Source: Owenia fusiformis (lineage: Eukaryota > Annelida > Polychaeta > Sabellida > Oweniidae). Taken from it: a stretch of DNA of 64,000 nucleotides. The stretch is from assembly GCA_903813345.2 (NCBI GenBank), contig CAIIXF020000009.1, positions 31,931,259-31,995,258 on the forward strand, read 5' to 3'. The notes below the pieces were generated by a model. That model had not been told where the DNA came from, ran no database searches, and worked only from the letters and a program-made list of their open reading frames with translations. The stretch's first letter is position 1; every line of letters begins with the position of its first letter. Positions 2,979-63,416 of this stretch are shown one piece after another. The position numbers were made by a program, and so were the translations under genes.

Positions 2979-4674
2979 ATATGCTGATATCATAATGAAG
3001 TTGGATCCCTGGTTGGCACAATGGTTTGGTGATGACCCAGTGTGGGCAGGTATTAAGCAAGGATTGGAGTTTATGCAGCAAATTGTCAGCTGGACCTCCA
3101 CAGCCTCAAATAATGTCAGAAGTAAGTCTATATGAGATGGCTCATAATGTTAGGAAGCAATTAAACCAAATAGAAATCATAAATGACTTTCATTTTTTGG
3201 CGATCAAGAGCAATTCAAAATTCCCCAATTCCCCGATCCTGAATGCTGACTTATGAGGAATATGATAGCAGGATTTACCCAAAAATTGTGGAATGAATTA
3301 TAGAGAGATTTGAAATGATTACACGAGCTAGTTTGATACTATGTTAGATTGTGAGGAAAGCTCTTCAAATTGGAGAGTCTAATCTCTATTAACGTATCAA
3401 CAAACCCCAGTCACTCGAAATACGACAGAAACATTCAAAACTCACAAATCAACCAAAATCACGAACCATAAATATGAACTTCAGGACAGAATACAAAGAA
3501 AAAATGTTCAACTTTTTGATATAAACGATCTTATTGTAGATGTGACAGTATCTCTCGGGGATATCTTGAAAGATGCATCCCTAGATGACCTAGCCAATCA
3601 TACCCTAGGTGCAAGTGAGGTCCTAGCGAAATCTACCCTCAACATGGGAAAGGTAGGTGTACCTTAATATTAATTTCCTGACACTTAAATCTTTGTTCCA
3701 ATATATATACAGTGATTTTATAATTCTAATAATTTTAATGATAAAGCTTATCAGTGATCAAATGAAGAAAAAATGTTAGGATGAATCTCTAAATGTATGT
3801 TGAATATACCATTACACTGGCCTGTTAGCTTCTGGATCCGCCAGTGCATTATCTATGATTGGATATAACTTTATTTGCTGTACAAGGCATTTTGAAATGT
3901 TAAAATCTGTTGAGTGACACATGTGTTAAGAGTTAATATAACATATATAACATATACAGGGCGTCCATAACGTCTCTTTACAATTACAATACAAAGTGTG
4001 TGTAAAATAAATAAGGGTTATGTACTGGGAGGTTTTGGATATGGGGTTTATCCAGAGCGAGGTATGCATATCTACCTGAGGGACCGTAGGGACCGAAGGT
4101 AGATGTGCATATCTCACGAGGGATGAACCCCATATCCAAACCGACCGTACATAACTGCATTATCCTATACCAAGTAGAGTTTTCAGGGGCATATGGCCAT
4201 TTCAATAGTACAAGGTGTAAAAATAAAAAATCAAGTCATTTTATTGCATTACCGGAAGCTGGAAGATATGCACCGGAAGCGGGAAGATATGCAGCGAAGC
4301 GGGAGATATGGAGGTTCTGGATATGAAAACCTCAAAATCAGGATACGGGATATATTACCAACTTATCTCCCTAAAACTCTACTTGGCATAGGATAAAGAC
4401 ACTTTATTTTATTTCTTCAAGAGCTCATTCATGTTTATCTGGCTATGATTTTCAGTATGTTGCATTGATGGCACGAGTGGCAACATCTGGGGACAACATT
4501 GGAGCAGTAGTATGTAGCACAGCACCTGGAGAGGGTCTACTGGGGGTTTTAGACTCACCCCCTAATATGGATAGGGCCCCTTTAGAGGACTTTATAAAGG
4601 CTCTGTGTTCAGCTGATAATGAAACCCTTGAGATGTTTTTGAATCAGTTCAGTTACAATCAGATCACTAGCATT
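2979..4674 (+). CDS. ABCA loop cassette M0 (partial: exons B, C, D)
   Basis: Exons are 2979-3121 (enters phase 2, leaves phase 1), 3540-3652 (1 to 0) and 4456-4674 (0 to 0). The A exon of this cassette must lie before the window. B reads YADIIMKLDPWLAQWF and C reads VSLGDILKDASLDDLANHT. D carries the cysteine pair VVCSTAP and ALCSADN, about 37 residues apart. Donors are GTAAGT, GTAGGT and GTAAGT. The D exon has no stop in 73 codons. The 803-nt intron before D contains two nested palindromic elements. Confidence 0.8.
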
Positions 4675-7600
4675 GTAAGTTACACAAGTATACATATATA
4701 TAGAAATATGTCACTGTTTTTTAATATTTGTTAGATATTATTTTAGTCATGGAAGTTAGAAGAAGCATCAGTGTTAAAAATGAATGAATGAAATACTATA
4801 ATTTTGAAATATATATCAAAGAAGAATACTTGAATGACATATTTTTTCAAAATAATATGAGATTTATATCATGTGTGACATTTCTGATCCATAATAACAC
4901 ATGTTTGTATATGACATTACTGAAAATATATAACATTTTAATAATATATGACATTACTGAAAATATATGACATTTTGATAATATATCATTTTAATAATAA
5001 ATGACATTTCTAATCATGTATGAAATACTGAAAATGTATGACATTGATCATAATATATGTCATTACTAAAATAAAGGACATTTCCATTTATGTCTGGTAT
5101 TTCTTTCATTTTAGATTGAAAGCATGAACTCACAGGCTAACAATACCATTGGTCTACCATTGAACTTTACTGTAATTCTCCAAGATGCAAAAAATATTTT
5201 TGACTCATTTTCAAAACTTGCGGAAGAGCTGCCACTCAGTGAGACATTTATCACCCAAATCTGGAACAACATTTTGGGCGTACTCAATGGCATCCCTCTT
5301 GGTTTGAACTCAACAATGACAGTAGATTCAACACTACAGTATGTAATATAGAAAAGATTTTCTTAAAATTAATTTCAAACTGGCTTAATGTCCTTCAATA
5401 TGATGGTCATTTGTCAAACTATTAGAGATATATCATACAGAATTGTTTTTCGTACATGAGATTATTCCATTAGTTAACAAGAATATACAAACAACAATCG
5501 ATTGCCAAAGTCTTATAAAAAATATTAGCGGCAATTTTAAGAATTTAAAAGTATTTGTGATATTATAGTGTATCAAATAGGCTAACATATTTATTTGTTA
5601 TTACAGGACCATACTTGACTCACTGGGTGGACTTCAATTGGTTCTCCAAACTACTAATGATCCTACCACCAATGTACTACTGATTGTGGCTGACCATTTT
5701 ATGGACACATTAGAGATTGCAACTTCTATTATTCCTGGTAAGTTGCCATAATGAATGGATGAATGTTCAGGAAAACCTGTTTTCATGAACACCTCTTTCT
5801 AGTGAACACCTTAGTATTTTGGACACCTCTCTAGTGAACAACTGTGTCTCGTGAACACCTCTTCTCAGCACATACTCCACAGACTTCTGTACAAAATCGT
5901 CCGTCTATAGTGACCACATTACTATAATGATAACATACTTGTGCCTCCATAGGTGTTCACTATACACATGTTTTACTGTATTCTGCCAAGGGAAAAGAAA
6001 CAAACAAAACTGGTTTGACTGAAGGTATAGAACATGTTAAAGGAAATTAATTTGTGAGTCATGACAGATTCTTTTGTAGACATATTGTGCAGGTCTGGCA
6101 GATAATTCATACTTTTAGTTCTATTTTGGTGATTTTTGGTTAAATATGGATGCTTTGATTTGCTTAGATTTATAGCTTGAGCTGGGGGCCATTCCATTCA
6201 CCTCCATGTGTAAAATATATTGAAAACACAGCTTGTATTTTGCATATGCCTAATACTACTGTAAACATAAAATACATGTATTTGCATAAGAAGCAAAAGT
6301 ATAGGAAGATGAACACTAAATAAACAAATAAGTAAAAATAAAAGTGTACATGTATAACATTTATGTTGTAGACATCACTGGGTACATCTACAGATTGGTT
6401 ACTGAGGATGATAATGCCGGGCAACTGGTGTTTGACATCTTGGAGTCTGGTCCAAATGGAACACTGGCTGTCATAAAGGCATTGCTCGACCCTGAAGTTT
6501 TGGAGGTAAAATCTTAGTGTTTCAGTGTGCTATTTTTATTTGTTTCTCCATTTCATATAAAAGTTAAACAAATGAAACATTGAAAAAGAAAAAAGGTTGC
6601 TAACTCCTTATTCAACCATGCAATTTAAATTTTTTTGATAGAGTGCAGTACCTAGTATCTAAGTGTCATATCTGAGACGAATGGTCCCAGAATTATAATA
6701 TGTAGACACTGCCCATTTTGTAATCCATTTCCCTTACAGAGCATAATAGTTGATCCATCCCAACTCCAAGTCAAGCTCTGCAATGAGACCTGGTTCTCAA
6801 TGTACGTAGATGTCCCCGCAAGTATGTTTGATAACATCAAGAGTAGTCTCTGTGACAACCTAGCCTTCCCAGCAATAATTGAGAAGATACGTGCTGACGT
6901 GAGGGCTGATGATATGATAGCTTCTGTAAGTGAATTAGAATAGTTTGATTTTCAATTTATTTTTTATACTGCTGGCTTCATTCAATGATTTGCTATGAAG
7001 CACAGTACAGCAAATTTCATACACATAGCGTATAATTTACTATGAAACATTTACATTGTTTTATGTATTATTCGACATTAATGTGAGCAAAAATAAGAAT
7101 AGTATCCTTTAAAACTTTAATTTACTATTTTAATTTCAAATATGACATTGTTCTCATTTCATGTTTTTTTATATTCACATTTCAAATATGACATTGTTCT
7201 CATTTCATATTTTATTATGTTCACATTTCAAATATGAAATTGTTCATATGACATTGTTCTCATTTCACATTTTGTAATGTTCACATTTCTAATATGACAT
7301 TGTTCTCATTTCACATTTTATAATGTTCACATTTCTAATATGACATTGTTCTCATTTCACATTTTATAATGTTCACATTTCTAATATGACATTGTTCTCA
7401 TTTCACATTTTATAATGTTCACATTTCTAATATGACATTGTTCTCATTTCATATTTTATTATGTTCACATTTCAAATTTGACATTGTTCTCATTTCACAT
7501 TTTATAATGTTCACATTTCAAATATGACATTGTTCTCATTTCACATTTTATAATGTTCACATTTCTAATATGACATTGTTCTCATTTCATGTTTTATAAT

Positions 7601-10600
7601 GTTCACATTTCAGTTCAACAAATTCCTTGAGGTTGCTAATCTTGCACAAGTGAACAGCTCAGCCCTTCTGGGGCCAGAATACTCCCAGAGGGCCAATTTG
7701 GCTCGTCTCATAGAGAGAGGACAGGAGCTGGGAATGAGGCTGAGTACAATAAATGATGGACAGGACTTACCATGGGAAAACATTCTGGTGAAATTCAATG
7801 AAACAGGAGATTGGAATGTAATCGGTGAAGCTTTGATGCAAGAGTTTCAGTTTAATGCGTAAGTTGTGCCTCAGTCACATTTGATCTATGGCAACCATAC
7901 AGCAGCCATAGATTCCCAAAATTGAGATAAATGTGAAACATAAAATATAGGGATAAACAATATGATGTAGATTTTCTGTATCGATTTTGTGAGCCTACGG
8001 CCACTGTAAATCAAATATGAATGAGGCTTAATAATGCTATACCCATGGGAATAGTGCTAGTTTCATGAGTAGTATGCCACCACCGGGACATGATTTGAGC
8101 AGAAAAAAATGAGATATTTTAGTAGTGCTTATTGATGTACAAATTTTTCATCACTTTACATGTTTTTAACAGCATATCTGCAGTAATTCAGAGCCTGGGC
8201 ACACAGTACATGGTATCTGACCTGGGCAGGATCACAATGGGCAATGAATGGATGAGAGCCCTCCATGTTCTTGTCAAAGCTATGAATACTAACCTGGATA
8301 TTCAGAGAGGTAAGACTGAAATGATTCAATGCTGAATCATTAATAGTGAATAAATGAATTATCAATAAATTGCTACCATTCTAAATATAATATATTAAGA
8401 TATATTAACGGTTTAAGGTTCTAAATTACATCCCTTGATGACTCATTACATTTCTAAGAAATGAGTGAATTATAAGAAATCCTAGGATGAATGAATTAAT
8501 GAGAGTGCACTGGAGTCTGTGAAGTTCCAGGGGTAGGATATCATTTATATCCTGTATATCTTTTCCTCCAGGCATTGCATCAGTTAACAGCCAATATGGC
8601 CGCCTTGTATACTACATTCAGGAATATGGAGCTGACATTGTACAGAGTCTGTTTGATGGTTACTCTGAAAAGGTAAGTCAATCAAAGTTCAGAAATCTTG
8701 TTTAAAACACAAATCTCCTTTTTAATGCATTCAAACAGATAATTAAATAAGAGATAAATGCTGAGAATGAGCTACATTTCACATGTGATTTCAGATTATC
8801 TAAGCTTTTCACAGAAATTAATATTTTGTGTTACAATTTTTAAACAATCTGCATCTGATTTTTACAGCGTTGTTGAACTTTGGTGTATTCAAATCTGAGG
8901 AGCATATAATTTCTCTGTTGTAGCTTGCATACTTAACACAGCAAGATAAGAATGTTTTTGAGATCCTATGCAGTTCTCAGGCTGAGGAGCTATTCACATT
9001 TCCCAAGAGAGTCCCAGTTATGGAGATCCAATGGTTCATGTGTAGTATCCTCAATGGAACACAGCTCCAGATGGAGCTATACGAGCAAACATATGTAGCT
9101 TGGACTAACATGTTTCAACAGGTAATATGTAATAATATAACCAAGGAAGATTTGAAGCCAGAGTTCCAACTTAATATTCTATAATCTCCAAATAATGCGA
9201 TCTTGGTGATCTTGCCTGTATATTTCTACGGCTGTATGGAGAATGAACGATATTCTCCAACAAAGCTGGCGTCATTGTTGTCTGACATTTATCTGGCTAT
9301 AAATTCACAATCAGCATTCAAAATATTTGAACTATTGGCCATCTTGCATGATTTGAATTTGTTTGGTAATAAGACCAAAACTTCCATGTTGCACTTTGGC
9401 TGCCAATCCTCCTTGATATATACCCGCTCAAGGCCTTCATAACATTCACGAAAAATTGTCTCACAGAGTGTCTATTATATTGCAGTAGTAACATGTAAAA
9501 AGATTTTAAGGGATGTTATGACTCAATTTCAAGAAATGGTGTCGCATACACACATATACATATTATGTCTATCCTTATCTAATAGATGAACATTGAATGA
9601 AAAATGTACTTTCAAGTAGAATCAGTTCACATATGAAATGTTTTTTTCAGATGGAATTCATTTTCAACCCTAATTCAGCACTCCCTCCTCCCGAAGATTT
9701 CCCCTGGGACGAAGCGATAAGTGATGGCAAAAGATTTTACGATTATGTCTCATCTGAACCACCTAAAGGAATATGGAATACATTTACCGAGTTAAACTTG
9801 ACTGAGTTCATAAATGCTGTCTCAGGCGCACTTGCACCCATGGCAAGTACACTTGCACCCATGTTGAATGGCACAATGATGACCCCAGCCATGACCAGTG
9901 AATTTTCAAAGTAAGTTGATGAATATTGGTTGTGTAATATTAGAGCCAAATGATTATTGTAAACCTAGAATAAATATTTTCAAAAAAGAGGACTTGTCTC
10001 TTGAATGATTGGTTTTCCAAGTGAAGTGAAAAATTCAGGAGTCATGGATGATTTTTACACTCTCATACTATTTGTTTGCTTGTTGGACACAGTTGAATGA
10101 CATAATATTTAAGACAATATTTTTTATTGGTTTTATAGCTGGGTAGATGTGTTTGTACAGACAATGTCTAGCATTGACTTTGTATTGGGGAACACACCAG
10201 GCTGGTATGAGGCCAAACAATACATGGACCTCATGAATACAATCATGACAGACTGGAACCAAATGATGGCCAAATGGGATGGTAAATATATATTTATAAT
10301 AACACGTCATTTATATATTTATAATAACACGTCATTTATAAATTCATTAATGTGTAATGACGTAATGCAATATAACAAGTCATAAATGAGCTCAATATAT
10401 AAGGTAGGGGATGTATTTTAGGATTTATTATTTTACAATATACAATTATTTAAATCAATGTCAAAAGACAAAAATTGATTTGGCTCTAAATTCATTACTC
10501 TAAATTATGATGAAATGCAAGAAAATGTAATAGTACAATTATTTTCAATGCCAATGGGGCATTTATTTTTTCCACATTTATGGGCAAACTCGGTCATGTA

Positions 10601-58600: not shown

Positions 58601-61600
58601 TGGAAGGTCTCCTTCAGCAAAGACAAGGTCAGTTTTGGGCTCCCATGCCTACTATTTGCTTATTCAAATATATAGTACTTGAGGAACCAGTGTATGATAT
58701 GATATAGGATCTTGGTGGTCAGAGAATGCCATTTTGATTTCATGTTAAAAAGGGCTGAGTTGAAATGATTTCCTAAATTCTGCCATACTTTGCTTATTTC
58801 TAGATCCAGACAAGTTATTTAATAACTTGATTTTCTTCACTTCACACTTTGATTTTTAATATGGTGTGTTTATTATGTTTTTTCAGTATGGCTGAAACTG
58901 GAAGATGTTCTCAAAGGAGATGCCAACTTGGAGCAGACACTTTTAGATGTAGCGTCCCTCAGTCCTGATCTTATCTCAGCAATTTTGAAATCTACCATCA
59001 ACCTTGACCTGGTAAGCATAAAGTGTATCTTTATATTAACTTCCTGTTCGAGTTTTACTATATTATACTATACTATATGATAAAGAGTTCCAACTAATTC
59101 TGATTTCTTTTTCTGTTTCAGCTGTCCATTATCAACAACACAGCAGATGATTTGAAAGCTATTCTGTGCAACTCTTCAAAATTAGAGGAATACGTTCGTC
59201 TGCCACCAGGGCTCCAATCGGATGTTACATCTGAGGCTTTCAACAATGCTTTCTGCAAGTCTAACAATGCTACCCTCGTGAATGACCTCACTCAGGCTAT
59301 TGATGTTGGAAGACTTGCCTTCCAATGGGCTATTGCCAATCGGGAAGGATTCCTTGATCCAAACTGGTTGAAAAATCTGACAACTGAATTGTCCATGGCT
59401 TTCAATTGGTTCAGATCTGTTCCTCAACTCCAAAATTTTATTGATGATTTGACGTCTGGGAGGTTAGAGGATGTGTTACCAGAATTCCAGAAGTTCCTAC
59501 TGCAAAATGACCCATCTGTGTTTTATTCAAGGTAAACACTCATTATTATTCATTTTGTTTTGGAGTTTACTTTTCATTTATATATATTTCATTTATGTAG
59601 ATTTTATTGTGATACCTCGTATTTTTGTACTTAAGGTGTAAGATTCATAAATTAGATATAATACCTGCTAAAATATTAGAGATTAAATTTTTTTTTAATA
59701 GAAATTTAGGTTTCCCTATAAATAGACCCTTTGTTCACTGCATAAAAATGTATTGTCTTTTGTTACAGTGTTGAGATGGTCCTTCAACTATTGAGTGAGG
59801 GCACCAGTAGCTCAGACCCTACAGCCAGTAAGGTGTTCCATGATCTTAAAGTTATAGCCAATGCTGCCAGGGCCTTACAGACAGTACAGACCTACATGCC
59901 TGTCACTGGTAAGCCATATGTACAGTTATTAGCCTCTAGTCTTGATTCGATCCCTTGTAACCCCATGGAGGTGAGATAGACAAGTTAGATACTAATACAG
60001 ACACTTGGTACAAGACTTTAAGTCCCTGCAATGATTTCCTAGGCAAGCTAACTAAACAGATTCTTTAAGTAGTAAACTAGAAAAACTTGAAAAATATAAT
60101 AATCAGTTCTAGTCAAATAGATATACAATGAGCAAATACAATTTTGGAATACTCATGTAAAATTAAAAAACTGATATGAGAGGAAACGTAATGATCTCTT
60201 TGAGTAAAGTACATTATGAGGTGTTTGTATATGGAAGCATTCCCCCTTGGGAGATGCCAATGGGAGATTAAATTATGAAAATATATCTGTATTTATTTTA
60301 GTGAGGATGGAAGACCTACTGAAGAGTAGAGATGCTGTAAGAGACTATTTAATGAATACATTGGGAATCAGTCGGAACACCACAGAGGCTCTCTTGACTG
60401 CCTCTGTATCATACGCTGAGGTATGAATAGAATATGTCACTTCTCAAAACTGGACTTATTTCGTAAATTGATTTACTGAGTTCATATTATATAGAAGAGA
60501 ATAATATTGTCATATTTTTTCAAATTCACGAGGGGAATGATTTTTATGTCAACTTTTGGGATACATATATCGATGTTTGTCTTTTTGAGAGGTATGTAGA
60601 GGATGGCCAACATTCCAGAAATACAATCAGTGAAAAACTTATACAGTTATTCTAATAAAATTCATTAATTTTGATTTTGTCCATTCATTTTTCTATTATT
60701 CAAATGTTGAATATGATATACTTTCAGCTGATGAACACAACTGGTGACACTTTTACTGACACATTCTGTAAACCAGACCAACTTGGGCAGCTGTTTATCT
60801 TTGATGACGCAGCTGTGAATGTAACAGACATCAGTGGGCAGCTGTGTGCTCTCAATCAGACACAGATGTCTGGGTTGTTGGACTTTGTCTTGCAGGAAGC
60901 AAACATTGGCACGATGCTTCAACAGGTCTGTATGACATCATTGTAGAGTCAATATGACATCATAGAATTAAATTATTATGACATCATCATAGATTCTTTC
61001 TTTGCTGAGCCGAAGTACTAAAAAAGCTGTGGATTGCACCCATTTGCATCCAATATTGAAAATGAGAAGAATCATGAAAACAGTCACATTTCTACCAATT
61101 TTGGACTGAGTTGTGAAGATGGGATTTTACACCAACTTGAGTAAAAAATCTTTTAGGATCATACTGCCAATGCTAGTCTTTTAATTCAAAATGATGAATA
61201 TGTTCCAGATGTTAACACTGAGTCCAGACAAAATCCTAGCAAAGGCCAACCTGACACAGCAAGAGGTGACCAACCTGGTGACAAACCTAACAGAGAGTTT
61301 ATCTGAAGTCAGAACAGACCTAAATAGTCTTGTAAGCTCATTCAAGAACCTCTCACAAGTAGCAGATATCTCAAATATTGCTAGTATATCAGCAGGACAA
61401 ATTGGATTCAGTGATAGTAAGTATTATATAGAACTAACAAAAAGTGAGCCTAAAGGTAAATCAACTCAATAGATACTCGACTACAAACACATTTTCAAAT
61501 ATGATCAGGTGACCATTTCAATAGCTGGTACCAGTTACATCTGGATTTAAGCTAAGTTTTTCATCTTAATGTGTAAATGTCCAATTACAATTTTCTATTT

Positions 61601-63416
61601 GAACAACTCAAGAGATTTGGAATCTGGTAGTGCCAAATCTGCATCCATGTTTTATTATTCTCACTCAGAGCAATGTGTCTCTATGAGCAGAGCAATGTGT
61701 CTCTATGAGCAATGTGTCTTTATGAGCAATGTGTCTTTATGAGCAATTTGTCTTTACAGGTGAGAGTCTCAAGTCAATGAGTCAGATGCTATGTGGAACA
61801 GAAGATGCCCTAGCATTCACTGATGACTTTGGACTATCAGGAGATTTTGGTATAAATGATCAAAGGGCAATAAAAACTGAAAATGGAGAGGCAGTTGCTG
61901 ATATCTCTCAGTTTAGTGAAAAGCAGAAGAAAGAATTGGCATCATTTTCAAGTGAGTTGAAACACTTTAGTATTTTTATTTAACTATTGCAGATAAACTT
62001 ATAATGTCAAGTAACTTTGGTCTCAATAATGGACCAGATTCATTTGATCCAACATGATTGTTTCATTTAGGGTAAGGTGTTCAAAGTCTGTGGCATTTTG
62101 TCAGCATACATGGACATTTTAAAAAGAAGTGATTTTCAATATGGCAGGACTTAAGGAAGGGTGTCAGCCATAAGTGTATTTATTCACATTATGGAATAAC
62201 ACTGAAGTAAGTACATTGTATTTGTATTGTACATGTATTTCCAGGCCAATACTGCAAAGACATGTTCATCAACATCCAGACCTCAGACATTGGCTCTATC
62301 ATCTGGACATACATAAAGCCTCTCATCAGAGGAAAGATCCCATTCTCCCCCAACAACAAGCTCACCAGGGCTATCATGAATGAGGCTAACCACACATTCA
62401 CTGAGATAGTACAGCTTCAGGAGTTTGCATATTCCATTCTGAATGGGACTGATGGTCTATATCAGTTAGTTAACAGCTCAGATAGCTTGAAGAAACTCCA
62501 GGTAGGAGCTCTTTATTCTAGAAGTATAATATTGTATAGTAATGGACTAAATTCATCTAGAACATAGTAATAGTATTTTCTATATAGTAATGGACATACT
62601 ATTACAGGCGTGTTGTAATTTCAATTTAGTCATATTTAGGCAATTAATAACTATGACTCCAATACAAGTAATTCACTGATAGGCAACTTGAACTTACTGA
62701 TGCCTTCCTTTGTAACCAATGTGTTTGATTTTATATAAGCCAAGCAGTAACTCTGGTGATAGGCAACTCTGGTGATAGGCAACTTGCCTTAATCAGGAGA
62801 CCTGATGACATCATTGAACTCACTGATGCCTTCCTTTGTAACCAATGTCTTTAATTATATATTAAGGCAAGCAACTCTCCAATAATTGACTCGGTGGTAA
62901 GCGGGATGCCTGACACAGGAGACCTGATGGCTTCACTAGACTCCTTTACTGGCTACACGACTGAAGACGTAGACACCATGGTAACCTTGGCTCAGCTTAT
63001 GCTGGATGTCACTGAGTGTATAGAATTGGACAGGTTTGAAGGATTCGACACAGAAGAAGAGATGGAAAAACGTGCACAGGAGTTAAACTCTGATAAATCT
63101 ATGCTTGCTAGTAAGTACAACTGGCTTATATAAACCCCTATCTATTATAGCACCGTATATATTAGACTGACGATTAAATTTTTTCTTGGCAAAAGTTTGT
63201 ATGCTATGCTCCTTAAGGTGTTGGTTTAATGTATTCTGATTCTAAATATGTATGCTGTACTCCTTAAGGTGTTGTGTTCCTGAACGTTGATGATGATGCT
63301 ACTGGTCGAAGAAGGAGACAAGCTGACACTACAGGAGATGGAATTCCTAAACACATTCAATATAAGATCAGAATGGATATTGAGAATGTGCATGTGACCA
63401 ACAGGCTTAGAGACTT
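2979..63416 (+). CDS. giant ABCA-type transporter (ABCA12/13-like), extracellular domain 1 only, 85 exons, both ends outside the window
   Basis: ABCA proteins are full-length ABC exporters that move lipids across the plasma membrane or vesicle membranes. Their first membrane domain is split by a large extracellular loop after the first helix. Here 85 exons chain in phase (15,615 nt, about 5,205 residues) without a stop. The family call rests on exons 82-85: MLCG...QYCKD, SIIW...KPLIRGKIPFSP...TRAIMNEANHTF and QYKIRMDIENV, collinear with ABCA1. Everything upstream is a repeat of about 22 cassettes rich in N-x-S/T sequons, with two cysteines each. No transmembrane helix or nucleotide-binding motif lies in the window. 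The family member (ABCA1-like versus ABCA12/13-like) is inferred from loop length only. Introns not listed separately hold nothing I recognise. Confidence 0.88.
4012..4150. mobile_element. palindromic MITE-like element (best copy of the family)
   Basis: Two arms of about 45 nt face each other. The left arm runs GGGTTATGTACTGGGAGG, then GGATATGGGGTTTATCC. The right arm gives GGATGAACCCCATATCC, then CCGACCGTACATAAC. The centre is a second palindrome around CTACCTGAGGGACC and GGGACCGAAGGTAG. It lies inside the intron between the M0 C and D exons and is noncoding. The open frames seen here on both strands are products of the palindrome. Confidence 0.65.
4152..4397. mobile_element. second inverted-repeat element next to the palindrome
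   Basis: The terminal arms are TATCCTATACCAAGTAGAGTTTT at the left and AAAACTCTACTTGGCATAGGATA at the right, an inverted repeat of about 23 nt with one or two mismatches. The interior holds a short tandem of GGAAGCGGGAAGATATG. It abuts the 4012-4150 palindrome, so the two may be one compound element. Confidence 0.55.
4868..5075. repeat. degenerate AT-rich tandem repeat (ATATGACATT units)
   Basis: Variants of ATATGACATTACTGAAAATAT recur about eight times in the intron between cassettes M0 and M1. Units diverge in length, so there is no fixed period. It is noncoding and ends about 40 nt before the acceptor of the next exon. Confidence 0.55.
5115..6925 (+). CDS. ABCA loop cassette M1 (A-B-C-D)
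   Basis: Exons are 5115-5338 (A, 0 to 2), 5607-5737 (B, 2 to 1), 6372-6505 (C, 1 to 0) and 6740-6925 (D, 0 to 0). Phases join exactly and give about 225 residues. A holds sequons (NNT, NFT, NST) and the late tryptophan typical of A exons. C has the LV..DIL...GTLAVIKALL pattern shared by all C modules. D has KLCNETW and SLCDNLA. The intron between B and C contains a MITE remnant (5765-5980). Confidence 0.85.
5765..5980. mobile_element. MITE-like element with internal GTGAACACCTCT repeats
   Basis: It starts near CAGGAAAACCTG and ends with GTTTTACTGTA, which is the inverted version of the TACAGTAAAAC end seen at 15877-15986. The interior contains several direct copies of GTGAACACCTCT. It belongs with the copies at 15877-15986, 27804-27977 and the fragment near 11287. 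It is noncoding and intronic. Confidence 0.5.
7134..7613. repeat. 46-bp minisatellite, about ten units, ending at a splice acceptor
   Basis: The unit contains TATGACATTGTTCTCATTTC then ACATTTTATAATGTTCACATT. It recurs about every 46 nt with a few substitutions and one short unit near 7235. The last unit ends GTTCACATTTCAG, which is the acceptor of the next coding exon (7614). The minisatellite thus supplies the polypyrimidine tract and is one or two bases from making an acceptor in every unit. Confidence 0.85.
7614..9121 (+). CDS. ABCA loop cassette M2 (A-B-C-D)
   Basis: Exons are 7614-7858 (A), 8173-8309 (B), 8572-8672 (C) and 8924-9121 (D), with the standard phases 0-2, 2-1, 1-0 and 0-0. 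C is short (101 nt). D has ILCSSQ and FMCSIL. The A exon begins directly after a minisatellite. The intron between A and B holds a 'GCCTCAGTCACATTTG' MITE. About 226 residues, all consistent with a soluble helical extracellular module without membrane segments. Confidence 0.85.
7868..8033. mobile_element. MITE with 'GCCTCAGTCACATTTG' ends, copy 1
   Basis: The left end GCCTCAGTCACATTTG and the right end CAAATATGAATGAGGC form an imperfect terminal inverted repeat. Inside, AAATATAGGGATAA and AGATTTTCTGTATC are shared with a second copy at 54989-55150, and the two align along their whole length. It is a nonautonomous element of about 165 bp lying in an intron, with no coding capacity. Confidence 0.7.
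9122..9650. other. intron between M2 and M3, no recognised content
   Basis: A 240-nt open frame on the plus strand (9203-9442) has no neighbour it can splice to in phase and does not resemble cassette exons A to D. It may be part of an unrecognised transposon fragment. Nothing else can be supported in this intron. Confidence 0.4.
9651..11227 (+). CDS. ABCA loop cassette M3 (A-B-C-D)
   Basis: Exons are 9651-9910 (A, 260 nt, longest ordinary A exon), 10139-10281 (B), 10685-10812 (C) and 11024-11227 (D). A contains a short internal repeat, ALAPMAS followed by TLAPMLN. C shows VIESTLDMVPEAMDVLM, matching the C-module core. D has TLCGTLK and AFCSLSTN. Phases join exactly. The intron after B has two direct copies of TATTTATAATAACACGTCAT. 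Confidence 0.85.
10286..10345. repeat. two-copy direct repeat in an intron
   Basis: TATATTTATAATAACACGTCATTTA occurs twice in a row, starting about 5 nt after the donor of the M3 B exon. It is short, noncoding and of no evident function. Confidence 0.6.
11420..11715. mobile_element. possible MITE with GACTAGATGCGAGTAG ends
   Basis: GACTCAGATGCGAGTAG at the left faces CTACTCGCATCTAGTC at the right, about 295 nt apart. The left flank and right flank also share AGAGGTGTTT as a direct repeat. The interior is AT-rich without an open frame. It lies in the 564-nt intron between M3 and M4 and accounts for half of it. A small TACAGTA-family fragment lies just before it near 11287-11345. Confidence 0.45.
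11792..13577 (+). CDS. ABCA loop cassette M4 (A-B-C, split D)
   Basis: Exons are 11792-12018 (A), 12194-12339 (B), 12688-12824 (C), 13027-13143 (D, first part) and 13488-13577 (D, second part). D is divided by a phase-0 intron after TLFR, with one cysteine in each half (NVCSNS and VICES). C reads LNILEYINSSELYRLLRLQ, nearly the same as the C exon of M6. B has YQMNLLLKFIN, which M6 repeats as YQQNLLMKFLN. Confidence 0.88.
12416..12495. mobile_element. 80-bp inverted-repeat element
   Basis: CCCAGAATTCATAGATGATCA and the inverted TTGATCCGTCTATGCATTCTGGG make a terminal inverted repeat of about 22 nt with a few mismatches around a 35-nt middle. It is intronic and noncoding. It is probably a tiny MITE or solo hairpin. 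Confidence 0.5.
13931..15819 (+). CDS. ABCA loop cassette M5 (A-B-C-D)
   Basis: Exons are 13931-14151 (A), 14487-14650 (B), 15018-15154 (C) and 15640-15819 (D). A has NPPANVD and KWMNETVW, B has LEPMLAPLLETPGVAENIH, and D has ELCSKD and TMCSLD with PDSIAQNITELF between them. Each is matched closely by M7 (exons 30-33). B's PLLETPG core is the clearest signature of B modules across the gene. Confidence 0.88.
15877..15986. mobile_element. TACAGTAAAACCTG-family MITE, best copy
   Basis: The left end TACAGTAAAACCTGTCGAGG and the right end ...TTTACGTGTTCTACTGTA are inverted copies. GTGGAACACCTCT is also repeated in inverted orientation inside, making the 110-bp unit nearly a full hairpin. TA-rich flanks leave the target duplication unclear. 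Related copies lie at 5765-5980 and 27804-27977. Confidence 0.65.
16087..17928 (+). CDS. ABCA loop cassette M6 (A-B-C, split D), paralogue of M4
   Basis: Exons are 16087-16298 (A), 16665-16816 (B), 17101-17237 (C), 17508-17624 and 17839-17928 (split D). The D halves have exactly the lengths of the M4 halves (117 and 90 nt) and the same phase-0 intron position, with RVCVDS and VVCES. A holds QMWLDPAVW, repeated in the A exon of M8. The B donor is GTGAGT after ATCACTA. Together with M7 it is the second copy of a two-cassette repeat. Confidence 0.88.
16425..16610. repeat. dispersed 'CAGTGTTCTCC...CAAGTGGG' repeat, copy 1
   Basis: It begins CAGTGTTCTCCAGAGGG and runs into TTTTTCTCAAGTGGGCACAAAATTCTCAC. 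A related stretch in the opposite orientation is at 21600-21725, ending CCTGGGGAGAACACTG, and a weaker one lies near 61050-61160. It is noncoding and probably a nonautonomous transposon family. Confidence 0.5.
18202..20128 (+). CDS. ABCA loop cassette M7 (A-B-C-D), paralogue of M5
   Basis: Exons are 18202-18416 (A), 18755-18909 (B), 19223-19350 (C) and 19949-20128 (D). A reads LTNPPADVDVAK then SQWMNQSVW, B reads LQPLLGPLLETPGIKENIH, and D reads QLCTTEP and SLCTLDF around PDSIVQNITDL. All align without gaps of note to M5. The 598-nt intron before D shows no element I recognise. Confidence 0.88.
20521..26782 (+). CDS. ABCA loop cassette M8 (A, extra exon, B-C-D) spanning the nested TRIM gene
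   Basis: Exons are 20521-20723 (A), 21036-21194 (extra, phase 2 to 2), 25585-25766 (B), 26173-26300 (C) and 26573-26782 (D). A (QMWLDPAMWNKIFESLNQDL) copies the A exon of M6. The extra exon starts like a B exon (SLMSITNQLETVL) but ends LIADPAYLNR, like the end of the A exon (LSNPAFLDR). It is probably the scar of an unequal exchange and could be skipped without changing frame. D has VLCGMT and LFCSVN. The 4.39-kb intron between the extra exon and B contains the antisense TRIM gene. Confidence 0.82.
21600..21725. repeat. dispersed 'CAGTGTTCTCC...' repeat, copy 2 (reverse orientation)
   Basis: TTTTGCACCCACTTGAGAAAAAATCCTGGGGAGAACACTG is the reverse counterpart of the start of the repeat at 16425. 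It lies in the intron that also holds the TRIM gene. Confidence 0.45.
21830..22028. mobile_element. possible MITE with CACGTG inside
   Basis: AGAATATATTCTTTCTTTTTACCCCCTG at the left and CCAGGGGGAAGAAGGAGGTACGGATTCT at the right are imperfect inverted repeats. The interior is less AT-rich than its surroundings and contains a perfect CACGTG palindrome (about 21958-21963), which basic-helix-loop-helix factors bind. Whether this has any regulatory role for the neighbouring TRIM gene is unknown. Confidence 0.4.
22457..22542. repeat. GC-richer hairpin
   Basis: GGGCCCATCTTCGTTCACTCGGCTTC faces GAAGACCGAGCGTGGGAAGATGAGTAGGGCCC. The two arms pair over about 30 bases with small gaps and stand out from the AT-rich intron. 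It lies about 420 bp beyond the stop codon of the TRIM gene. It is probably a transposon-derived foldback, as at 29457-29594. Confidence 0.5.
22881..22886 (-). terminator. candidate polyadenylation signal of the TRIM gene
   Basis: TTTATT on the plus strand is AATAAA on the minus strand, about 75 nt after the TRIM stop codon. It is the nearest canonical hexamer downstream. In this AT-rich DNA the match may be chance. Confidence 0.4.
22962..24818 (-). CDS. TRIM-NHL-type protein (RING, two B-boxes, coiled coil, NHL-like propeller), intronless, nested antisense
   Basis: A complete 618-residue open frame ends in TAA. RING-HC ligands are C15, C18, C30, H32, C35, C38, C55 and C58. B-box 1 runs about C96 to H135. 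B-box 2 has C162, H165, C174, D177, C182, C185, H190 and H193. A coiled coil covers about 200-340. The C-terminal 240 residues contain NHL-type repeats (PHGVCTDAEDYIFVADCSNQRV, then PHAVTIDHDGNLLVGD). Proteins of this architecture are E3 ubiquitin ligases or RNA-binding regulators, and invertebrates have many single-exon members in immune-type expansions. No filamin domain is visible. The start is the first ATG, 14 codons before the RING. It lies inside an intron of the ABCA gene, opposite strand, without introns of its own, which suggests a retrocopy origin. It is intact, so probably functional. Confidence 0.92.
   Translation of the reverse strand: MATNVNDHYKTALNCALCKDILTDPRTLPCLHSYCLKCLHSLVEKSGLEGGSFNCPECRDLCNVPQQGVGEFKVSPTITFLLDAYKDSNQTQEPDCSTCLDNYEKNTPARIRCLDCNKRFCASCRKMHDTFLQGHKVLDLIGDSANDLQTAFQMVKERTVYCKIHPTKPIEYFCKADKTILCQSCFTINHSGHPCEDINETAAKNVKHIGAAITQGKQLVDAYEQAIQNTQADKSKFESKTENVLAEINNDMIVLKEAVDAKYKSFKEQVVKEKQTYVKQVMSHIGHLELNKAIIESQVNKFSTMVEHGHPVEIADLAEKANQKSDEWTKKPKLKFDEKTNMQFKVGRCLDTKVEFGKVSILLHEPSVQKVKLQNKYIWDMICTSKDRLIVTGQDDSSVAIYDKDHKLEKDLKEKCNNVVRTKEDELAFTNMTNTIHILLPDGTHKRNLVCKGTNDLRGISINSAGEIVVGDRYSKAVFCVDASTGEAKQQSKAGMFMDPIYVACNSKDIAIISDIEGHFVKGINRDGTEVFTYGESGDGEGELYNPHGVCTDAEDYIFVADCSNQRVHMLDPHGRFMRYVLTEEDGVNQPHAVTIDHDGNLLVGDTNGNLFIVKYRG
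24941..24948 (-). promoter_or_regulatory. TATA-like box upstream of the TRIM gene
   Basis: TATTTATA on the plus strand reads TATAAATA on the minus strand, about 125 nt before the TRIM start codon, a plausible distance for a short 5' leader. No other promoter element is recognisable, and AT-rich DNA makes chance matches common. Confidence 0.25.
25960..26010. repeat. AAAT microsatellite
   Basis: AAATAAAATAAATAAATAAAT-type repeats lie in the intron after the M8 B exon. It is noncoding. Confidence 0.75.
27132..28976 (+). CDS. ABCA loop cassette M9 (A-B-C-D)
   Basis: Exons are 27132-27364 (A), 27662-27786 (B), 28334-28455 (C) and 28761-28976 (D). B reads GVIGFLPPEITNPLNNVLHPL, a PPE-type variant also seen at M17 (ILPPEISTALAPVINP). 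C reads PEITKLIKLLDKSPEITEILL. D has NICYNPM and EFCKVDI with YLVVPEGRGIDLTAL between. The B-C intron holds a MITE and a 76-bp repeat. Confidence 0.85.
27804..27977. mobile_element. TACAGTAAAACCTG-family MITE, degenerate copy
   Basis: It starts ATAACCTGTATAAAGTGAACACCTCTG and ends GTTCATTAAGACAGGTTTTACTGT. Internal GTTCACT and AGAGAGG motifs repeat in both orientations. It is related to the copies at 5765-5980 and 15877-15986. Confidence 0.55.
28129..28300. repeat. 76-bp tandem repeat, just over two units
   Basis: ACTTAGTTTCACATGTTTTG followed by TACATAGTTGCATGTATC starts at 28129 and again at 28205. A third truncated start is at about 28281, after which the sequence passes into the pyrimidine-rich tract before the M9 C exon acceptor at 28333. 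Confidence 0.75.
29183..29450. mobile_element. MITE with 30-bp inverted ends and a three-copy internal palindrome
   Basis: The left end TTATCCTACACTTAGTGTAC and the right end GTACACTCCTTGTAAGTGTAGGATAA are inverted copies and extend inward with ACTAAATGTA. Inside, GGAGGATATTGTGACGATATACTCCG or a close variant occurs three times (about 29258, 29286 and 29331), and each copy is itself palindromic. There is no coding capacity. Confidence 0.7.
29457..29594. repeat. 138-bp near-perfect palindrome (snapback element)
   Basis: Arms of about 58 nt flank a 20-nt loop. The left arm passes from CATCCTATGATTTT to GGTGATATTGATATATGCAC. The right arm mirrors it from GTGCAGATATCAATATCACC to AATCAAAGGATATCC. 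It starts just after the MITE at 29183-29450, so it may be a separate hit in the same insertion-prone spot. Confidence 0.65.
29685..31231 (+). CDS. ABCA loop cassette M10 with a 694-nt fused exon (A | B+C+D plus the A part of M11)
   Basis: Exons are 29685-29875 (A, phase 0 to 2, with EQWMNETAWLSVL) and 30538-31231 (phase 2 to 0). The second exon reads without interruption through a B part (GLGLALTPFVEDPMLNPIV), a C part (LTLEDVF then SPDILETIL), a D part with TFCDKN and LICETN, and a new A part ending RKYIPIIESFYQAIEQ. Introns that separate these modules everywhere else are missing. That points to precise intron loss, for example through a reverse-transcribed copy. Confidence 0.85.
31638..32275 (+). 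CDS. ABCA loop cassette M11 (fused B+C exon, D)
   Basis: Exons are 31638-31862 (225 nt, phase 0 to 0) and 32084-32275 (D). The first joins a B-like half (VKPTYDGMKVVLDYVNDM) directly to a C-like half (INVARLFKNSSRIAVILES, GPDAVSALLAATF). Unlike the later fused exons it also begins in phase 0, because the preceding A part is fused into the exon before. D has LLCNEAK and ALCGINE. Confidence 0.85.
32485..33719 (+). CDS. ABCA loop cassette M12 (A, fused BC, D)
   Basis: Exons are 32485-32711 (A, 227 nt), 33116-33359 (BC fused, 244 nt, phase 2 to 0) and 33552-33719 (D, 168 nt). BC reads LDGILMLSPELRKSLEGVN then DILKGRLEGMTELTLDSLL, the template of the next three cassettes. D has FLCQDLA and KLCAIN. 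The A exon differs from those of M13 to M16: it lacks their PFNW motif. Confidence 0.87.
33766..33880. mobile_element. small copy of the 'TGTCACCACC...GGTGGTGACA' element
   Basis: It starts TATGCCACCAGC, contains GTGTCTGTAACAAATGGCAGG and ends GGTGGTGACTTTTTGCTTATTAATGC. The same right end is at 43827-43859 and the same middle at 37979-38050. It appears to be a deletion derivative of the large element at 42274-43859. Confidence 0.5.
34093..35018 (+). CDS. ABCA loop cassette M13 (A, fused BC, D)
   Basis: Exons are 34093-34316 (A, 224 nt), 34440-34683 (BC, 244 nt) and 34851-35018 (D, 168 nt). A has FNWTKLVMNIQMF and TDWLAAWGNLQLPGMSGDP, the second half nearly identical to M14 at DNA level. BC has SSLDGVFDLIPELRQAMEGF. 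D has MLCEDGV and KLCSINP. Introns are very short (123 and 167 nt), the most compact cassette in the gene. Confidence 0.9.
35431..36733 (+). CDS. ABCA loop cassette M14 (A, fused BC, D)
   Basis: Exons are 35431-35654 (A, 224 nt), 35950-36193 (BC, 244 nt) and 36566-36733 (D, 168 nt), all three lengths identical to M13. A repeats TDWLAAWGNLQLPGMSGDP. BC has IPELRQSLEVFN and EILKGRIGTMEEFTLEALL. D has YLCQDID and KLCSINP. M13 and M14 look like the most recent duplicate pair. Confidence 0.9.
36990..38355 (+). CDS. ABCA loop cassette M15 (A, fused BC, D)
   Basis: Exons are 36990-37216 (A, 227 nt), 37570-37813 (BC, 244 nt) and 38182-38355 (D, 174 nt). A keeps EPFNWSGFMMNIQ and VQLPGMSSDP. BC is more diverged (EIRPVLESFNIALEMLNGRV) but has exactly the same length and splice phases. 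D has FLCEGVN and KLCSAD. Introns contain one tiny TACAGGGTGGGC hairpin and a small TGTCACCACC element. Confidence 0.88.
37297..37367. mobile_element. 71-bp hairpin with TACAGNGTGGGCT ends
   Basis: TACAGAGTGGGCTGAAAATGTT at the left and AATGTTTTTAGCCCACCCTGTA at the right are inverted repeats of 22 nt with few mismatches. It is a miniature element in the intron between the M15 A and BC exons. Confidence 0.6.
37979..38050. mobile_element. smallest copy of the 'TGTCACCACC' element
   Basis: TTATGTCACCACCACCAC is followed by TTTGTAACAAATGGCAGG and then TGGTGGCATTTTGCATGTAA, keeping both ends and only the middle GTAACAAATGGCAGG motif of the longer copies at 33766 and 42274. Confidence 0.55.
38552..46041 (+). 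CDS. ABCA loop cassette M16 (A, B, C, D) split by the foldback element
   Basis: Exons are 38552-38775 (A, 224 nt, PFNWTRLVMNAQMF), 45025-45149 (B, 2 to 1), 45418-45545 (C, 1 to 0) and 45847-46041 (D). A belongs to the M13-M15 type, but B and C are again separate exons. So the fused-BC array ends exactly here. D has NLCEFE and LFCDAN. The A-B intron is 6,249 nt, of which 5,937 nt is the foldback element. Without it the intron would be about 310 nt. Confidence 0.86.
39834..40278. mobile_element. 445-bp MITE nested in the left arm of the foldback element
   Basis: GGCCATAAGAATTAGATTCT at the left faces AGAATCTAATTCTTACGGCC at the right, and similarity continues with TGTTTTGC. Flanking TTA on both sides may be a target duplication. 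The short open frames inside (both strands) have no protein-like character. Confidence 0.65.
40970..41545. repeat. inverted repeat at the core of the foldback element
   Basis: CTCTGGGTATACACCTTCCATTCC and TAGAGTAGTAGTAG at the left, then AGGGCTAAACTTTGGTCATGGCC, are mirrored at the right by GGCCATGACCAAAGTTTAGCCCT, CTACTACTCTA and GGAATGGAAGGTGTACCCAGAG. The arms are about 150 nt long around a 230-nt centre. This could be an independent older insertion. Confidence 0.6.
41950..42170. repeat. 195-bp near-identical direct repeat, copy 1 (copy 2 at 43862-44070)
   Basis: From ATTATTATGCTAAAATATGG to GGTTACCCCTGGCCATTC the two copies differ at only a few positions, far fewer than other sub-repeats of the element. 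They flank the satellite-bearing insertion at 42274-43859. Confidence 0.7.
42274..43859. mobile_element. 'TGTCACCACC' element carrying a nine-unit satellite, nested in the foldback element
   Basis: The left end TTATGTCACCACC immediately forms a small hairpin with GTGGTGACAT. The right end is GGTGGTGACATTTTGTCATGTTAATGCC. It interrupts a foldback sub-repeat after ATTACATATCTTG. Between the ends lies a short GGTTGGTGGTTGGCGTCCGGCG segment and then the satellite. Small derivatives lie at 33766-33880 and 37979-38050, showing that the family moves or deletes internally. Confidence 0.65.
42400..43760. repeat. satellite-like tandem array, about nine units of 130-155 bp
   Basis: Each unit runs CTTGCTTCAAATTGACTAAA, a T or A run, CAAAATCATCTAC, TTCTCAGAAATTCAAATCTG, ATTTGACATTTGACC, then TTCAATGACCTTCTCAAGGTC and AAAAAAGGTCAAAAAGGTC. 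Unit length varies through small internal duplications of GACTTTAGATTT. Every unit has AGGTCA direct repeats spaced 4 and 3 nt and opposite TGACCT copies. Confidence 0.85.
45609..45690. mobile_element. half copy of the GGTTATNTACTGGGAGG palindrome family
   Basis: GAGGTTATTCACTGAGAGGG followed by AGATTTTATTCAGAGGGTCAATATGATAT matches the left arm and centre of the elements at 2317-2440. The right arm is missing. Confidence 0.4.
46466..54371 (+). CDS. ABCA loop cassette M17 (A-B-C-D) split by the LINE
   Basis: Exons are 46466-46668 (A), 47205-47353 (B), 53727-53854 (C) and 54180-54371 (D). B reads DILPPEISTALAPVINP. C follows the LINE and starts DGVTLDAWARDNSAVAQF. Its phase fits the B exon exactly, showing that the retrotransposon sits in an intron and leaves the gene readable. 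D has ALCNVSA and AVCGQTAD. Without the LINE the B-C intron would be about 180 nt. Confidence 0.85.
47735..51544 (-). pseudogene. LINE ORF2 (endonuclease, reverse transcriptase), broken by one in-frame TAG
   Basis: The frame opens at 51544, meets a single TAG at 50927-50929 and continues in the same frame to 47735, about 1,269 codons in all. Before the stop lie INFLFWNIN and LLSETWLD of the endonuclease. After it come GDMNAR, DYVAVQ and SDHCP of the same domain, so the stop falls inside the endonuclease. The reverse transcriptase shows YRGINVL, MIDFRKAFD, GVMQGSVLS and LLWADDLIL (a WADD form of the catalytic box). The C-terminus has CNICGILEDEQHFIMIC. A single lesion in 3.8 kb indicates a young copy. 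Confidence 0.9.
51583..53367 (-). CDS. LINE ORF1 (coiled coil, proline/basic linker, SGNH-hydrolase-like C-terminus)
   Basis: 594 residues. A Ser/Thr/Gln-rich N-terminal part is followed by a coiled coil (about 185-300, from ELQYENKKLRTRIISLEKRL) and a proline- and lysine-rich linker (RPPKVPSRSPPKPSPRK). The C-terminal domain resembles the esterase domain of CR1/L2 ORF1 proteins: MYSSNGKKL where GDS is usual, GFGTNN for the GxN block and NDKLHFN for the DxxH block. The stop is 38 nt before the ORF2 start, in another frame. In the same frame upstream, an open stretch (53640-53416) is separated by one TGA plus 16 codons, so the native start may lie further 5'. Confidence 0.8.
   Translation of the reverse strand: MKATTARLKHGTKITVSDYVTVEVSDSGIITVFGEELQDWRDNDFDLIKGTLVSLKITSTPDSYSTSLPSTSTPCNTHSSGTLPAQTQEDIFISQSEEIDTGEDSIIFFLGNDTIPNTQADSGESAQISQSQSLIQPTVIPETQLDTQKPLSQNASQPATGSLHLSNISPTQTESTSKPDTPSITSELQYENKKLRTRIISLEKRLEEESIEHSQHITQLNAKLQDLHYRLQSADKKKEDEIQMPKQLHEQETRDLASKLECYESNEKWQITTIQGLKADLATQHRKNVALIERFQQMGCHDFDQSLPQSMSPPTISQKGQTTSKTSIPKRFVNKNPATKRFPTHDNEGISASTAKRPVTQPPNRPPKVPSRSPPKPSPRKYINSSKQLPTTVHIMYSSNGKKLSGMMHNRSKGKNMKVTSSVYSGANIEDATRIIQQGDIGKSTDHKFLGFGTNNVKVDSAQTITYELKNLAITAQNQHPTSKITLCGLHHRADHPNPQEVKQMNMKIDQVNREMESFATKKGFHFININRINDSTSLDPNMNVLYNDKLHFNFTGRTRLVDAMLSIINSTHNSYAEAVSMGNSRKSRTGLKL
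54668..56916 (+). CDS. ABCA loop cassette M18 (split A, B-C-D)
   Basis: Exons are 54668-54785 (A first part, 0 to 1), 55364-55460 (A second part, 1 to 2), 55673-55803 (B), 56173-56300 (C) and 56713-56916 (D). The usual A exon is divided by a phase-1 intron, seen nowhere else in the window, yet the outer phases are kept. D has IVCDKGR and GLCDSAT around QTFVFPLGTDADKEL. The intron dividing A contains the second copy of the GCCTCAGTCACATTTG MITE. Confidence 0.82.
54989..55150. mobile_element. MITE with 'GCCTCAGTCACATTTG' ends, copy 2
   Basis: The left end GCCTCAGTCACATTTGATTC and the right end GCAAATGCGACTGAGGC are inverted repeats of about 16 nt. The interior (AAATATAGGGATAA, AGATTTTCTATATC, GAAGCTACGG) aligns throughout with the copy at 7868-8033. 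Confidence 0.7.
57162..57814 (+). CDS. ABCA loop cassette M19 (A, D-like; B and C missing)
   Basis: Exons are 57162-57349 (A, 0 to 2) and 57586-57814 (2 to 0). The second exon has a D-type cysteine pair (GMCDII and LFCDIE) but enters in phase 2, where a B exon would start. It looks like a deletion that joined the beginning of a B exon to a D exon. Its donor, GTCACT, is the weakest in the gene, so the 3' boundary is less certain than others. Confidence 0.72.
58166..59531 (+). CDS. ABCA loop cassette M20 (A, B, C, D fused to the A of M21)
   Basis: Exons are 58166-58359 (A position, 0 to 2, unusual in having two cysteines, TCSRIM and GKCVLS), 58494-58627 (B), 58887-59011 (C, DVLKGDANLEQTLLDVASL) and 59122-59531 (410 nt, 0 to 2). 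The last exon holds a D part with ILCNSS and AFCKSNN and then, without an intron, an A part (FAW-type, SMAFNWFRSVPQLQNFIDDL). This is a second independent D-A exon fusion beside the one at 30538-31231. Confidence 0.82.
59769..60925 (+). CDS. ABCA loop cassette M21 (B, C, D), last repeat
   Basis: Exons are 59769-59908 (B, 2 to 1), 60302-60420 (C, 1 to 0) and 60728-60925 (D, 0 to 0). The A part is the 3' half of the preceding exon. C reads MEDLLKSRDAVRDYLMN and TTEALLTASV. D has TFCKPDQ and QLCALNQ. The D donor is GTCTGT. From here on, the sequence becomes the non-repeated, conserved end of the loop. Confidence 0.83.
61209..63416 (+). CDS. ABCA extracellular domain 1, conserved membrane-proximal end (exons 81-85)
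   Basis: Exons are 61209-61416, 61760-61951, 62245-62501, 62867-63110 and 63269-63416 (leaves in phase 2, continues beyond the window). MLCGTED and QYCKDMF match the cysteine pair of ABCA1 before SIIW...KPLIRGKIPFSP and NEANHTFTEI. ECIELDRFEGFDTEEEM corresponds to the CVNLNKLE region. VVFLNV...HIQYKIRMDIENVHVTNRLRD corresponds to the block that directly precedes the five-helix membrane bundle. A four-arginine run (63307-63318), not present in ABCA1, lies just before it. Acceptors of the last two exons have tandem decoy copies upstream. Confidence 0.92.
61668..61759. repeat. 17-bp minisatellite, five units, ending at a splice acceptor
   Basis: GAGCAATGTGTCTTTAT repeats five times (first units CTCTAT, one with an extra GAGCA). 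The last unit becomes GAGCAATTTGTCTTTACAG, which is the acceptor of the exon at 61760. The pyrimidine tract of the acceptor is therefore repeat-derived. Confidence 0.8.
62696..62943 (+). repeat. tandem duplication of about 125 bp covering an acceptor and an exon start
   Basis: ACTGATGCCTTCCTTTGTAACCAATGT occurs at about 62696 and 62823, and CAGGAGACCTGATG at about 62794 and 62917. The second copy contains the functional acceptor and the first 77 nt of the exon at 62867. The first copy is a decayed version inside the intron. Confidence 0.8.

Follow-up and report, generated by a model that had tools for sequence, protein, structure and literature searches.

A predicted ABCA-type transporter gene of Owenia fusiformis with a first extracellular loop built from tandem copies of the lid domain

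The window, a stretch of 64,000 nucleotides of Owenia fusiformis DNA, was extended by flanking sequence, 30 kb on the upstream side and 40 kb on the downstream side, resulting in 134 kb of joined sequence without N. Negative coordinates refer to positions upstream of window position 1. From -13311 to 94246, exon models on the plus strand follow the ABCA order TM1-ECD1-TM2-6-NBD1-R1-TM7-ECD2-TM8-12-NBD2-R2 (Table 1). Between TM1 and TM2 lies a loop of about 5,542 residues, which contains 22 divergent cassettes (c01-c09, c11-c21, c23 and c24) and two remnants (c10 and c22). The gene is predicted to encode an ABCA-subfamily transporter that does not match the single-lid type. With its draft C-terminal part of 1,636 residues, the protein would comprise ~7,200 residues, possibly more than any ABC transporter described so far.

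Table 1. Positions of the modelled ABCA domains, lid cassettes and remnants. Scores are those of leave-one-out profiles; TM segments are from exon models, hydropathy and ABCA likeness.
Feature	Position	Strand	Score (bits)	Remarks
TM1 exon	-13311..-13218	+		exon model
ECD1-start exon	-12477..-12336	+		exon model
Lid cassette c01	-4949..-1145	+		upstream of window
Lid cassette c02	2979..5338	+	41.1	4 exons, phases 2>1, 1>0, 0>0, 0>2; shuffles <=4.0
Lid cassette c03	5607..7858	+	38.5
Lid cassette c04	8173..9910	+	34.3
Lid cassette c05	10139..12018	+	69.3
Lid cassette c06	12194..14151	+	99.7	tree partner c08 (100/100)
Lid cassette c07	14487..16298	+	81.7	weak-acceptor exon 15018-15154 placed by homology
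Lid cassette c08	16665..18416	+	96.4
Lid cassette c09	18755..20723	+	80.8	tree partner c07 (100/98)
c10, remnant exon	21036..21194	+		phase 2>2, no cysteine; profile match not significant
Lid cassette c11	25585..27364	+	52.3
Lid cassette c12	27662..29875	+	79.1
Lid cassette c13	30538..31150	+	53.9	inside 694-base exon 30538-31231, where c14 also starts
Lid cassette c14	31151..32711	+	82.5
Lid cassette c15	33116..34316	+	144.5	3-exon form (244+168+224 bases); c15-c18 clade 98/99
Lid cassette c16	34440..35654	+	159.1	3-exon form
Lid cassette c17	35950..37216	+	117.3	3-exon form
Lid cassette c18	37570..38775	+	104.9	3-exon form
Lid cassette c19	45025..46668	+	73.5
Lid cassette c20	47205..55460	+	29.5	weakest; split by 6.4-kb intron; shuffles <=9.0
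Lid cassette c21	55673..57349	+	62.5
c22, degenerate cassette	57586..58359	+		2 exons, four cysteines; profile match not significant
Lid cassette c23	58494..59531	+	65.1
Lid cassette c24, last	59769..61416	+	49.0	groups with c01 and paralogue lid (85/91)
ECD1 base-domain exons	61760..63416, on to 63998-64174	+		after c24; ABCA1, ABCA4 and ABCA7 matches
TM2-6	64442-65902	+		exon model
NBD1	from 72669	+		draft with doubtful micro-exons
TM7	80457-80730	+		exon model
ECD2	80996-87008	+		exon model
TM8-12	87303-88970	+		exon model
NBD2 and regulatory domain	from 89327	+		exon model, Pfam
Last coding exon, ending at stop	from 93737	+		exon model

Exons were predicted using our own exon finder, trained on repeated plus-strand exon groups from a self-comparison of open frames. 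On the plus strand of the window, a score of 1153.6 was obtained with 88 exons, 82 of which were strong, with scores of at least 13. As a control, the minus strand scored 55.5 (26 exons, five strong) and eight shuffled sequences scored 20.9-39.4 (zero to four strong exons each). During curation, eight exons were removed. Five of these were weak exons of 12-51 bases (16428, 23820, 38863, 49354 and 63924) and three (13027, 15129 and 20016) were replaced by the homology-corrected versions 13027-13143, 15018-15154 and 19949-20128. Two exons were added (19223-19350 and 63269-63416), resulting in a stop-free chain from 2979 to 63416 of 85 exons with continuous phases (15,609 coding bases, 5,202 residues). 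A few splice choices, at weak splice sites, were set by homology. The original prediction had likewise given 85 in-phase exons without a stop; curation was carried out knowing this count, every edit being based on phase and cassette homology.

In the upstream flank, 14 of 20 modelled exons were removed as weak, and a weak candidate start codon was located at -13589. Curation ended at 66345; counted from 64442, the downstream model has 35 exons and 1,636 residues. Using Pfam, ABC2_membrane_3 and ABC_tran were found over the cut-off in both halves of the protein. R1_ABCA1 passed it in the second half only, the first half reaching 19.9 versus the required 27 bits; four exons in the interval 73281-77283 were omitted from this query as doubtful, leaving its NBD1 incomplete. 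Among solved chains, ABCA1 was nearest to NBD2/TMD2 (E 3.4e-207), followed by ABCA4, ABCA7 and ABCA3. The N-terminal part of the loop had been expected outside the window, and c01, the ECD1-start exon and the TM1 exon were indeed found upstream. The proposed search of the flanks for a first helix and a first NBD yielded TM1, 13.3 kb upstream, and the draft NBD1, and the ABC domains on whose presence downstream the prediction depended are there.

Several further elements were observed in the window. In the intron between c10 and c11, the minus strand carries a 623-residue open frame (22962-24833) with Pfam matches to RING, B-box and NHL, a putative TRIM-NHL-like gene or retrocopy. The c20 intron contains, also on the minus strand, a LINE-type retroelement (47735-53679); one of its frames matches a reverse transcriptase and, below the cut-off, an endonuclease, and a second frame has a GDSL-lipase-like match that is likewise below the cut-off. 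Between c18 and c19, the intron carries tandem repeats (42383-43862) with a spacing of mostly 135-148 bases, and a tandem array with a 23-base period (7041-7652) extends up to the c03 exon at 7614 and over its beginning.

The 22 cassettes, counted here and below without the remnants c10 and c22, are 204-250 residues long (~225) and together comprise 4,940 residues. All of them contain exactly two cysteines at homologous positions, which probably form a disulfide, and one to seven N-glycosylation sequons. Intron phases recur across the array as 2,1,0,0. A phase-2 intron marks the start of 21 of the 22 cassettes, the exception being c14, which starts within an exon and whose border with c13 was placed by hand; the plain four-exon 2,1,0,0 form is found in 12, including c24, the exit phase of which differs. 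When each cassette was searched with a profile from which it had been left out, all 22, as well as the lid of an ABCA1-type paralogue on C1 of the same genome, were recognised at 29.5-159.1 bits, whereas 100 shuffles of each sequence did not exceed 11.5 bits. Divergence is strong, ten of 13 other cassettes compared being 13-20% identical to c15.

A profile was built from 14 of 18 cassettes, with c02, c04, c06 and c20 omitted, and searched against all PDB chains. The four credible sequences were all ABCA4, aligned over residues 125-258 at an E of about 5e-6 with both cysteines matched, and the next-best match had an E of 0.39; ABCA1 and ABCA7 chains were absent among the 16 sequences listed at E<=10. 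Searched singly against PDB, c01 gave no ABCA chain and no credible match, and the C1 paralogue lid gave ABCA4 only at E 0.22. Cassette c24 plus the base was colinear, end to end, with ABCA1 (E 1.8e-10), and ABCA4 and ABCA7 also matched. NCBIfam TIGR01257 (ABCA4) matched two of the 14 cassettes (best E 4.6e-5). From the 14-cassette profile, the alignment of c24 plus base and the TIGR01257 matches, the repeated unit of the loop is identified, by sequence homology, as the ECD1 lid of ABCA1/4/7-type proteins. In the available parts of the structural reports on ABCA4, the density of residues 138-271 is described as the lid, flexible and hollow, situated above a helical tunnel or barrel ~15 A wide (PMC7932691, PMC8219669).

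Two single-cassette models were computed using AlphaFold2 from contiguous exon peptides of the window. Both were all-helical and of low confidence (mean pLDDT 55.2 and 66.1; pTM 0.37 and 0.47). Foldseek returned no matches at E<=0.001 for either model, and when the second was compared with 13 chains using VIA-align, none reached Z>=2, the ABCA lid included. Given the low confidence and the absence of a fold match, these models were set aside as support for a lid fold or a shared cavity.

The original claim of one ABCA loop with over 5,200 ectodomain residues is supported by the phases, the exon-finder controls, the flanking TM and NBD exons and the ECD1 homology to ABCA1 and ABCA4.

The C1 paralogue begins with exons of 94 bases (0>1) and 142 bases (1>2), equal in size and phase to the first two exons of the array gene. 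There, the same exon finder then returned a single lid, encoded by exons of 134, 128 and 216 bases (phases 2>1, 1>0 and 0>0), and only one lid match was found in the 30 kb scanned (E 1.7e-9). A paralogue on C6 gave one weaker lid match in 20 kb scanned (E 3.8e-4). Since a single lid follows exons of equal size and phase in the C1 paralogue, a four-exon block bounded by phase-2 introns on both sides would have been copied ~21 times, and with a phase-2 intron at each block end the frame is preserved at any copy number. The outermost cassettes are still joined to TM1 and to the base in the canonical way. When the genome was searched with c16, c01 and c24, no second array was seen among the best-scoring candidates. 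In the genome query for the base, exon 62867-63110 was omitted and residues of the weak exon 63924 were included.

Other ABCA-like genes were observed at C1:27.57-27.61M, C6:6.76-6.78M, C2:8.70-8.75M and C9:24.48-24.50M, lids being counted for those on C1 and C6. Separately, C2:18588776-18947228 (~358 kb) contains recurring fragments that resemble lid exons of the ABCA1-type gene on C1. The first lid exon is matched 15 times, at 66-77% identity and mostly with one TAA, and the second 17 times over a short length of 23-24 residues. These fragments presumably form an amplified cluster.

In a tree of the cassettes, 13 of 20 inner forks were weak. Well-supported pairs were c06-c08 (100/100) and c07-c09 (100/98), which suggests that a block of two cassettes was duplicated to give c06-c07 and c08-c09. 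Cassettes c15-c18 (98/99) appear as a recent series. The group of c01, c24 and the C1 lid (85/91) has long branches and falls outside the strictest support class. Among the fragment alignments, A2 and A4 were dropped as misaligned, and A3 (imperfect) and A5 were used. In all eight exon pairs compared pN was lower than pS, dS being saturated in four of them; for exon 2 of c06 and c08, dN was 0.11 and dS 1.03. The nine introns of c15-c17, compared by blastn, showed no similarity to one another. Low pN relative to pS in exons whose introns lack similarity argues that the exons are held by selection.

The 5,202 residues of the loop within the window have a slightly hydrophobic composition (LIVFM 35.3%, GRAVY +0.11) and a hydrophobic moment that is highest at 100-110 degrees (0.26-0.27 vs 0.19-0.20 in shuffled sequence). 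In the proposed mechanism, an ATP-driven TM/NBD engine would deliver lipid into the ECD, as has been proposed for ABCA1, and every extra lid would be an amphipathic, helical and hydrophobic chamber, probably pinned by its disulfide; each copy is taken to be a hollow helical chamber because the unit is the lid. The loop would then form a multi-chamber relay or reservoir for lipids extending from the membrane, in which the lipid output of the pump could be stored or passed along the lid chain. As both ends of the array are presumably anchored at the base, the chain would run out and back and would not form a one-way mast. Lipid binding by every copy is not required, given the high divergence of the cassettes. 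Among the roles offered by the original prediction, lipid handling is the best fit, the repeat being the ABCA lid; adhesion or a decoy function would be conceivable alternatives.

This main reading, anatomy and lipid-holding function taken jointly, is assigned a probability of roughly 0.5. As to its parts, one ABCA gene with a lid multiplied to 22 tandem copies is, from the sequence evidence, close to certain, and the lipid-holding function of the array would be put slightly below an even chance. It is unlikely, in our estimation, that the array forms a hollow fibre which runs out and back over a length of tens of nanometres, with ~22 lipid-lined chambers supplied by the ABC engine, and serves as an extracellular conduit or reservoir for lipid, the giant regions of ABCA12 and ABCA13 in other animals consisting of the same multiplied lid. 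In the accessible part of one report, lipid passage via the ECD tunnel of ABCA1 is termed speculative (PMC13161189). The long N-terminal region of ABCA13 is described as required for cholesterol internalisation in cells (PMC7948424, seen in part), a finding consistent with giant loops acting on lipids.

The strongest competing explanation, to which we give perhaps one chance in a few, is that the array serves as a structural spacer or an adhesive arm, its lids being no more than stable helical domains that keep binding sites or glycans at a distance from the cell and contain no lipid. The window part contains 84 N-glycosylation sequons vs 47.2 expected, at the one to seven per cassette given above, and it is acidic overall (DE 12.1% vs KR 6.0%); these figures, together with the strong divergence between cassettes, would suit an arm. 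However, the unit is an ABCA lid, its hydrophobic amphipathic composition has been kept and the domains of the pump are present, and a Pfam scan of 14 cassettes revealed no credible family and no adhesion domain (best E 0.0051).

Far less probable is a reading of the chain as adjacent genes or partial pseudogenes joined by the exon model, in which the largest introns would separate an ABCA gene from lid-only genes not linked to it. Large introns do occur at 21.2-25.6, 38.8-45.0 and 47.4-53.7 kb, the first and the last containing another coding element, and two cassettes, c10 and c22, are degenerate. Against this, 97 curated exons from TM1 to 66345 were in phase and stop-free, and pN remained below pS in every exon pair compared. 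Cassette c20 spans the intron at 47.4-53.7 kb, the largest in the window, and thereby ties both sides together. Hydropathy was calculated according to Kyte-Doolittle in 19-residue windows: the loop peaks at 1.44, versus 1.65-2.49 in six flanking TM-like windows, in agreement with the earlier statement that no helix-like hydrophobic stretch interrupts it. With no TM-like window within the loop, TM1 upstream and TM2 onward downstream, each half of a split gene would be left without its membrane partner.

A mucin-like brush, an option of the original prediction that is not supported and barely credible, would suit a huge, predicted extracellular loop rich in N-glycosylation sequons, but S+T+P amounts to just 18.8% of the 5,202 residues, the periodicity is that of amphipathic helices, cysteine pairs recur regularly at one per cassette, and the low-confidence models were all-helical.

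With the lipid-holding array retained as the preferred reading, what is new is the identification of the building block of a giant loop as the ABCA lid, multiplied 22-fold via a symmetrical exon block, while a single-lid relative persists in the same genome. The question of what giant loops are made of thereby becomes testable, as there is a domain to express, fold and assay for lipid binding, and the lid profile can be used on ABCA12/13 of other animals. For the giant ABCA13 loop, structure and function are described in the available parts of two reports as largely unexplored (PMC13161189, PMC7948424).

Compared with ABCA1, ABCA4 and ABCA7, the lid core corresponds to ABCA4 residues 125-258, c24 plus base resembles ABCA1, and NBD2/TMD2 is nearest to ABCA1. 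Those proteins have one lid, whereas 22 tandem lids are present here, and ECD1 comprises ~5,542 residues as opposed to 600 in ABCA4 (PMC7932691, seen in part). A very long ECD1 is shared with ABCA12 and ABCA13; as predicted, the loop exceeds the whole of human ABCA13 (5,058 residues according to the part of PMC7948424 available), with 5,202 residues in the window and 5,542 in full. According to the same source, the N-terminal region of ABCA13 lacks homology to known human proteins. Our literature search turned up no description of ABCA13 as a series of lids, nor any of the present gene. Against an approximate ABCA12 stretch, the cassette profile scored 3.8 bits, within the range of the shuffles (best 5.5 bits; 160 of 200 shuffles gave a score). 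Part of the ABCA13 loop reportedly lies in one 4.8-kb exon, according to the title of work by Prades from 2002; an exon of this size is absent here, the longest of the loop measuring 694 bases. Finally, bridge-like lipid transfer proteins of the VPS13/ATG2 type offer an analogy only, in that they too consist of tandem units with a possible long lipid-lined path; the array described here differs from them in being extracellular and in consisting of helical-looking lid units placed on an ABC pump.
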